Shown piece after piece: positions 46,299 through 54,984 of a DNA stretch of 64,000 nt. The notes beneath the pieces were generated by a model, which saw only the letters and a program-made list of their open reading frames with translations, was not told where the DNA came from and made no database searches. This DNA comes from Streptomyces sp. SCUT-3 (GTDB taxonomy: Bacteria > Actinomycetota > Actinomycetes > Streptomycetales > Streptomycetaceae): positions 1,372,501-1,436,500 of the forward strand of contig NZ_CP046907.1 of assembly GCF_014083985.1 (NCBI RefSeq), written 5' to 3'. How positions within the stretch are numbered: position 1 is the first letter of the stretch; the number at the start of each line of letters is the position of its first letter. The translations under genes and the position numbers were made by a program.

Positions 46299-47293
46299 AT
46301 GCCCGATCTGCGTGTCGTGGCCGTCAGCAACGACGGCACACGATTGGTGCTCAAGGCTGCCGACAACACGGAATACACGCTTCCGATCGACGAGCGCCTC
46401 AGAGCCGCCGTACGCAACGACCGCGCCCGGCTCGGCCAGATCGAGATCGAGGTCGAGAGCCACATGCGGCCCCGGGACATCCAGGCCCGGATAAGGGCGG
46501 GAGCCACCGCCGAGGAGGTCGCCCAGCTCGCCGGCATCCCGGTCGAGCGGGTGCGCCGCTTCGAGGGCCCCGTGCTCGCCGAGCGGGCGTTCATGGCCGA
46601 GCGGGCCCGCAAGACCCCCGTCCGCCGGCAGGGCGAGAGCACCGGCCCGCCGCTCGGCGAGGCGGTCAGGGAGCGGCTGCTGCTGCGCGGCGCCGAGAAG
46701 GACAGCGACCTGTGGGACTCCTGGCGCCGCGACGACGGCGTCTGGGAGGTCCTGCTGGTCTACCGGGTCGCCGGCGAGCCGCACTCCGCCAGCTGGACGT
46801 ACGACCCGCCCCGGCGGCTGGTCCAGGCCGTGGACGACGAGGCCCGCGCGCTGATCGGCGAGAGCTTCGACCAGCCCGAGCCGACCTTCCCCTTCGTGCC
46901 GCGCATCGCCCGGCTGCCCCGCGACCGCACGCAGCCCCGCGACGACGGCCACGACGCCGCCCCGGCGGCGGAGGAGCGCGACTCGCTGACCAGCCTGCTG
47001 GAGGCCGTGCCGAGCTTCCGCGGCGACATGGTGGTGCCCGAGGCCCCGGCGGCGTCCGCCCCGGAGCCGGAGGAGGACGAGGCCGCCGAGGCCGCTCCGC
47101 CCGCCCCGCGGCGAGCGCCGGAGCGGCCTACGCCGACATCCTGATGCCGCGTTCGGTGGCGGGCCACCGCGACCGCCTGGTGGGCAGCACCGACCGCCAG
47201 GCGGAGGCGGACGGCGTCCGCCCGGGGCGCCGGGCGACCGTGCCCAGCTGGGACGAGATCGTCTTCGGCAGCCGCCGCAAGAAGCAGGACTAG
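46299..47293 (+). CDS. sepH: Cell-division protein SepH, apparent frameshift near the 3' end
   Basis: SepH binds FtsZ and promotes Z-ring assembly during sporulation septation in Streptomyces. Residues 1-170 match the DUF3071 domain with its helix-turn-helix (MPDLRVVAVSNDGTRLVLKA, then GATAEEVAQLAGIPVERVRR, quoted in parts). The first frame stops at 47142-47144 after 281 codons. From 47105 the -1 frame (codons starting 47105, 47108 and so on) continues with the conserved tail (SAGAAYADILMPRS, VPSWDEIVFGSRRKK) to 47293. A single G or C missing near 47106-47110 would restore about 331 residues. Sequence error is the simplest explanation; real truncation is the alternative. The start ATG has GGGAGG upstream. 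Confidence 0.85.
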
Positions 47294-52015: not shown

Positions 52016-54837
52016 CTACTCGGCGGTGGACCACGGCGCCAGGGCCCTGGGGCCGAGATCGGTGCGCGCCGGCGGGCGCGCGATGCGCACCGAGGCGCCG
52101 AGCACGGACAGGCCCTGCGGGGCCACGACCACCGGTTCCAGGTCGACCCCGACGACCTCGGGGATGTCGTCGAGCAGGACCGCGACCCGCAGGAGCAGTT
52201 CCTCCAGCGCCGCGGTGTCGACGGGCTGGGCTCCCCGGTACCCGAAGAGCATCGGGGCGGCCCGGATGGAGCGGACCAGTTCGGCGACGTCGCGGTCGGT
52301 GGCGGGCAGCAGGCGGTGGGCGAGGTCGCCGAGCAGTTCGGAGGGGGCGCCGGCCAGGCCGAAGCCCAGGACCGCGCCCAGCCTCGGGTCGACGGTGGCG
52401 CGGACCACGGTGTCCACCCCGCGGGGCGCGAGCCGCTGGACGACCGGGCGGATCTCGTCCGGCTTGCCCAGGCGCGACGTCAGTTCGCCGTAGGCGCGGC
52501 GCAGTTCGGCGGGGCCGGCGAGGTCGAGGTGGACCCCGCCGAGGTCGGCGCGGTGGCGCAGGTGGGGTGCGGTGGCCTTGAGCGCGACGGGGTAGCCGAG
52601 GCGTTCGGCGGCGGCCAGGGCGGCTTCGGCCCCGGGCGCGGGCAGGGCGGGGTGGACGGTGATGCCGTAGTGGGCCAGCAGCCGGGCTGCGGTGTCCTCG
52701 GCCAGGGGCACGCCGGGGCCGTCGGGGGCCGCGGCGCCGGGGCGCTCGGCGTCGGCCGCGTCCAGCCAGGCGGCCACGTCCCTGGCCGCCTCGGCGGGCC
52801 GGATGTCCTCGAACTGCGGGACGCGGCCGGGGGTGGCGGCCCGGCGGCGCCAGTCGGCGTAGTGGACCGCCTCGGTCAGGGCCCGCACCGCCCGCTCGGC
52901 CGAGGGGTAGGCGGGGATGCGGGTGGCGGGACCGGCGAGCCTGCCGGGCAGCTGGTCGAAGGCGAAGTGGACGACGAGGACGGGCTTGTCGCTGCCGAGG
53001 GCCGCCTCGCGCAGCGCGTCGGCGAGCTCGCGGTCGCCCCGGCCGTCCGGGTCCTGGGCGGTGTCGACCCGGGGGATGGCGGTGACGACGACGGCGTCGC
53101 ATCCGGGGTCGGCCACGGCCGCGGCCAGCGCGCGCCGGAAGTCCTCGGGGACGGCCTCGGTGGTCAGGTCCAGCGGGTGGCGCGGGCTCAGCCGGCGGTC
53201 AGGCAGGCGTCGTAGGTGAGCAGCCCGAGGGACTCGGAGTTGCCCAGGACCGCGACGCGGGGCCCGGCGGGCAGGGGCTGGAAGGCGAGCAGCAGGCCGG
53301 TGTCGAGCATGTCGGTGACGGTCTGGGCCCGGATGACGCCGGCCTGGCGGAAGAGCGCGTCGACGGTGGAGTCGGGTATGCGGGTGTGCGGGACGCTGTG
53401 CCCGGCCGGGACGGCGCCGGGGTGCCGCCCGCTCTTGACGACGACCAGCGGCTTGGCGGCGGCGGTACGGCGGGCCAGGCGGGTGAACTTGCGCGGGTTG
53501 CCGAAGGACTCCAGGTACATCAGGACGACGTCGGTGGCCGGGTCGTCGTGCCAGTACTGGATCAGGTCGTTGCCGGAGACGTCGGCGCGGTCCCCGGCGG
53601 AGACGAAGGAGGACAGGCCGCCGCCGCGGTGGTGCACCTCGTCGAGCAGGGCGAGGCCGATGGCGCCGGACTGGGTGAACAGTCCGATCCGGCCCGCGGC
53701 GGGTGCGTGCGGGACCAGGGAGGCGTTGAGCCGGACCTCCTCGGCGAGGTTGATCACACCGAGGGCGTTGGGGCCGATGATCCGCATCCCGTAGGAGCGG
53801 GCCCGGCGCACCAGGGAGCGCTGCCACTCGCGGCTGTCGACGGCCGCGGCGGGGGCGTGCGCCGGTGCGGGGGCGCCGGGGGCGCCCGCGCCGGGGAGGG
53901 CCGGCGGGTGGGGGTGGCCCGAGGTGAGCACGACCAGCCCCTGCACCCCGTGGGCGCCGCAGTCGTCGATCACGGGGACGACCTGGTCGGCGGGGACGGC
54001 CACGACGGCGAGGTCGACAGGCTGCTCGATCTCGGAGACGCTGCGGTGGGCCGGGATCCCCTCGGGCTCCAGGACGTGCTGGTCCGCGGGGTAGGAGCGG
54101 TTGACCGCGTGGACGCGGCCGGTGAACCCCGCCTCCAGCAGGTGCCCGACGACGCTGCGGCCCACCGAGCCGGGCGAGCGCCCCGCGCCGATCACCGCGA
54201 CCGAGCGCGGGGTGAGCAGCCGCTGCACGGAACGTGCCTCGGCGCGCTGCTCGCGGGCCCGCATGACCTCCACGGACGCCTCGGTGGGCTCGAGGTCGAA
54301 CTCCAGGTGGACCACGCCGTCGGCGAAGCTGCGCCGCTGGGTGTAGCCGGCGTCCGTGAAGACCTTGATCATCTTGCGGTTGGCGGGCAGGACCTCGGCG
54401 ACGAAGCGCCGGATGCCGCGTTCGCGGGCCACCGCGGCGATGTGCTCCAGCAGCGCCGAGGCCACGCCGCGCCCCTGGTGGGCGTCCTGCACGAGGAAGG
54501 CCACCTCGGCCTGCGCCCCGTCCGAGGCCGAGCGGCCGGCGCCGTCGGTGCGGTCGTAGCGGACGGTGGCGATGAACTCGCCGTTCACCAGGGCCGCCAG
54601 GCCGACCCGGTCCACGTAGTCGTGGTGGGTGAAGCGGTGCACGTCGCGGTCGGACAGCCTCGGGTACGGGGCGAAGAAGCGGTAGTACTTCGACTCGTCG
54701 GAGACCTCCGAGTAGAAGTGGACGAGCCGCTCGGCGTCGTCGGGGGTGATGGGGCGGACGTGCGCGGTGCCGCCGTCCCGCAGCACGACGTCCGCTTCCC
54801 AGTGGACCGGGTAGGCACGCTCCTGCGAGGTCTGCAT
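52016..54837 (-). CDS. GNAT/acyl-CoA synthetase (NDP-forming) Pat-type protein lysine acetyltransferase, frameshifted
   Basis: Pat-type enzymes acetylate metabolic enzymes such as acyl-CoA synthetases. The N-terminal GNAT domain (about 15-170, with VQDAHQGRGVASALLEHI) is followed by the NDP-forming acyl-CoA ligase modules: SVAVIGAGRSPGSVG CoA-binding, GLFTQSGAIGLALLDE, and an ATP-grasp part with LGYPVALKATAPHLRHRADL. The first frame ends at a TGA (53190-53188) after LTYDACLTAG. Inserting one C at that point gives LTAG-LSPRHPLDLT and an open frame to 52016, about 940 residues, the usual length. It is therefore a one-base deletion or a sequence error. The ATG at 54837 diverges from ptsH. Confidence 0.85.
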
Positions 54838-54984
54838 GGGCACAGGGTATGCGTACAGGGCCGTTTCCGGGGCGTCCCCCGGTTCGCGGCGGCGCACCGC
54901 ACCGGGCACCGTGGGAGGGACCGCGCGCGGCCCGCGTCCGCGCCGGGACGCCCGCGACCGCCAACCGTTCGGAGGACTTCCGCC

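Follow-up and report, generated by a model that had tools for sequence, protein, structure and literature searches.

The sepH gene of Streptomyces sp. SCUT-3 is interrupted in the genome assembly by a single shift of reading frame. This lesion is very probably an uncorrected single-base assembly error in a G/C-rich stretch, and the organism very probably has an ordinary full-length SepH. The gene lies in a window of 64,000 nucleotides, the whole stretch of DNA analysed, which corresponds to positions 1372501-1436500 of the single contig (C1) that makes up the 6,075,149-base genome. In the same contig, 5,000 bases (C1:1525001-1530000) appear as N, either masked or withheld, in the genome's own sequence.

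As assembled, the sepH frame begins with an ATG at 46299 on the forward strand and closes at a TGA at 47142-47144, encoding 281 amino acids (46299-47144). We assigned the product to SepH, as had been predicted, through its HMMER match to the family profile NF040712, which gave 303 bits against a cutoff of 40 and covered profile positions 1-277 of 351. A profile search further showed that the N-terminal DUF3071/HTH domain (PF11268) is intact, with 203 bits over residues 1-168, and the first 209 residues are 90-94% identical to those of close relatives. This domain is followed by a variable linker, and the final 11 residues (RRAPERPTPTS) are out of frame. The two motifs of the far C-terminus, a 10-residue string and a K/R patch, are encoded in the DNA, but they lie in the -1 frame and not in the frame of the ORF.

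The frame moves by a net -1 within a stretch of 17 nucleotides composed only of G and C (47097-47113, forward strand), across which the relatives read ...(A)PAAS... in one frame. The longest mononucleotide run at the break is four C at 47104-47107, and the native frame is lost near 47104-47113. A net shift of -1 is the parsimonious description, with +2 as a formal alternative. The original prediction had placed a one-base shift in the -1 direction inside a C/G run, and the ORF and the tail are indeed found in different frames on the two sides of this stretch. The remainder of the gene occupies the -1 frame at 47112-47293 on the forward strand, where HMMER and the relatives identify the SWDEIVFG string and the R/K patch ahead of a closing TAG. 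HMMER also assigned this piece to NF040712 (profile positions 216-351 of 351), and it contains the normal SepH tail, YADILMPRSVAGHRDRLVGSTDRQAEADGVRPGRRATVPSWDEIVFGSRRKKQD, which begins at 47129, bearing out the claim that a normal tail continues to 47293.

The stop comes 149 bases (about 50 codons) early, and the earlier statement that the frame ends 50 codons early is correct for the stop position. Because the frame fails before the stop, near 47104-47113, the loss of native sequence is larger: about 61 residues at the normal end are missing, and 11 foreign ones are gained. The premature stop overlaps the ATG of the conserved LMPR motif as TGATG (47142-47146, forward strand). Since the Leu-Met codon pair CTG-ATG reads TGA when shifted, any -1 shift just upstream ends at 47142-47144.

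We then compared sepH among genomes of the Streptomycetaceae, a set in which the SCUT-3 genome alone represents its own genus. The gene was found in 150 of the 150 genomes drawn from the family, and its full sequence was read in 109 relatives, of which 29 came from the family search and 80 from named records. The tail is in frame in 108 of these 109, with total lengths of 334-383 amino acids (median 348); homologues that also ended at the shorter position, which would have spoken against a lesion, were looked for in this set, and a shorter SepH common to the lineage was therefore rejected. Of 54 positions, the SCUT-3 tail carries the consensus residue of the 108 relatives at 48, and at each of the other six its residue also occurs in some relative. 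Over 50 codons, the mean number of codons that differ from the relatives is 14.2 for synonymous and 5.0 for non-synonymous changes, and the GC content of third codon positions (GC3) in the -1 frame is 0.98. The results show no visible decay and clearly suggest that the lost tail was under normal purifying selection until very recently, or may still be. Because the tail is nearly perfectly conserved, the shift must have occurred very recently if it is real at all. We rejected an old pseudogene, as the tail gives no sign of relaxed selection and its loss is not common to the relatives.

Only one other genome, that of Streptomyces sp. I6 (L085), the exception among the 109 relatives, carries a -1 lesion at the same site of sepH. 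Its shift falls in the same stretch, and it too runs into a stop at the conserved Leu-Met codons (CTG-ATG to TGA), giving the same TGATG arrangement. The murC gene of I6 lies in three frames. It has been reported that the I6 genome was sequenced on PacBio RS II and assembled with HGAP/Quiver at 6-fold coverage, with Illumina not mentioned (PMC6346202). In a further genome (G073; L171), sepH is broken at another place, and that assembly is 76% complete in 4 contigs. The assemblies in which sepH is broken therefore also bear other, independent marks of indel errors.

Frame breaks elsewhere in the SCUT-3 assembly were surveyed by tblastn over 400 kb around sepH against the matching regions of four relatives, a break being scored when one relative's gene matched two adjacent frames. 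The coding DNA actually matched by the relatives amounted to about 150-176 kb. The results revealed clean breaks in sepH and in three other genes, namely murC, a HemY-type oxidase gene and a GNAT/acyl-CoA synthetase gene. The last, a Pat-like gene combining GNAT, CoA-binding, succinyl-CoA-ligase-like and ATP-grasp regions (about 52019-54846), lies in the window 6 kb from sepH; it has a net -1 break at 53188-53200 (about 53190) on the reverse strand and is one frame in all four relatives, which place the break at one and the same point. The other two genes lie outside the window. One, which we take to be murC, is split between two frames (C1:1333327-1334713, break at C1:1333995, shift +1 or -2); the other, presumably a HemY-type protoporphyrinogen/coproporphyrinogen oxidase gene, is likewise in two frames (C1:1339157-1340538, break at C1:1340224, shift -1) and was picked up only under a looser filter of the survey. 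Both names were recognised from the relatives' proteins and not through a family search. An apparent break in a gene of 136 amino acids (position 192111 of the SCUT-3 stretch) recurs in most of the compared genomes and was dropped as an alignment artefact.

MurC is indispensable for the synthesis of peptidoglycan in the cell wall. The two murC pieces are the sole good MurC match in the whole SCUT-3 genome, the next match having 29% identity and an E value of 4e-8, and the HemY-type pieces are likewise the sole good HemY match. Because MurC is essential and no second murC backs up the split one, the murC break at least must be an error, and the broken single-copy murC is the strong point in favour of assembly error. 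As controls, one genome (G015) gave 1 candidate break over 101 kb and another (G012) gave 2 over 164 kb, all of them with gaps of 63-110 nt in divergent stretches, while a relative (G108) may have one clean break in the 33 kb compared. Four breaks in SCUT-3 against none in the controls are suggestive, the numbers being small.

It has been documented that indel errors fragment genes in long-read-only bacterial assemblies (PMC12007338, PMC8812927), the I6 genome being a further case (PMC6346202). Since the SCUT-3 assembly breaks its only murC and other single-copy genes, the shift in sepH is most likely an error as well; we infer that it shares its cause with the other breaks and that the DNA is unbroken in the organism itself. 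The original prediction had rightly named a sequence error and a truncated protein as the two alternatives and made no choice between them, whereas the broken murC, HemY-type and Pat-like genes favour the error. Shortened G/C homopolymers, a signature of one specific kind of sequencing error, were not found, long G/C runs not being depleted genome-wide relative to the relatives. Together with an estimated assembly completeness of 99.08%, this indicates that errors are occasional and not pervasive. With the error corrected, SepH of the organism would be full-length, about 342 residues, and would be expected to promote the assembly of the Z-ring, as SepH does elsewhere in the Streptomycetaceae.

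By comparison, it is improbable that the frameshift is real and arose very recently in the isolate that was sequenced, for example in culture. The lesion consists of one clean shift, and the G/C run that holds it is also a plausible place for replication slippage. A strain carrying the lesion would live, given that a sepH deletion is viable in S. venezuelae, in which the N-terminal domain partly suffices (PMC7968930). The product would be a SepH of 281 amino acids that keeps the FtsZ-binding domain and loses the far-C-terminal motifs, with weaker tetramers, weaker septal recruitment and partial function to be expected. However, such a mutation leaves the broken only murC and only HemY-type gene of the same assembly unaccounted for, the tail shows no decay, and the one other genome broken at this site is a low-coverage PacBio assembly.

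It is very unlikely that the -1 shift is real and that SepH is made in two parts, the tail being translated as a separate 49-residue peptide by re-initiation at TGATG or fused to the first part by frameshifting or slippage. The overlap of the stop with the ATG of the tail frame and its recurrence in I6 speak for such a mechanism, but the overlap stems from the conserved Leu-Met CTG-ATG of intact relatives, the split architecture is absent from those relatives, and the longest run is only CCCC, with no evident slippery heptamer. Programmed frameshifting and transcriptional slippage were rejected for want of a long run or evident heptamer and because of the in-frame reading in the relatives. The fact that SCUT-3 and I6, two independent genomes, share the position of a -1 shift could also be read as a mutation hotspot at the G/C-rich junction that reversibly and repeatedly trims the tail, giving phase variation of sporulation septation; we consider this equally far-fetched. 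An assembly error remains our preferred explanation.

We also considered what a real truncation would do. In S. venezuelae, the N-terminal domain of SepH (residues 1-186) binds FtsZ and stimulates its GTPase, binding and assembly stimulation depend on the N-terminal HTH, and this domain alone rescues sporulation partially from the native promoter and to a wild-type-like level if expressed constitutively (PMC7968930). Tetramer formation and efficient localisation require the C-terminal half, and the two conserved motifs at the far C-terminus are without an assigned role (PMC7968930). Because the 281-residue product keeps the N-terminal domain and loses the motifs, a mild or partial sporulation defect would be more likely than a null phenotype, by analogy with S. 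venezuelae. The claim that the truncation should affect sporulation septa is accordingly too strong, given the partial rescue of sporulation by this domain in that species. Should the truncation prove genuine, SCUT-3 would offer a natural way to test the role of the conserved far-C-terminal motifs.

These findings make the sepH break a quality flag on the SCUT-3 assembly, and apparent gene losses here and in low-coverage long-read actinomycete assemblies should be checked against relatives before they are read biologically. As in long-read-only assemblies, the single-base shifts lie in G/C-rich stretches, number several per few hundred kb and strike conserved, essential single-copy genes. Unlike those cases, SCUT-3 shows no overall loss of long homopolymers. 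Compared with SepH of the intact relatives, the frame assembled here has 281 amino acids instead of 334-383 and is without the 10-residue string and the K/R patch. The N-terminal DUF3071/HTH domain, the linker and the sequence of the tail that mark SepH (septation protein H; PF11268, NF040712), characterised in S. venezuelae as vnz_27360 (PMC7968930), can all be found in the SCUT-3 gene.
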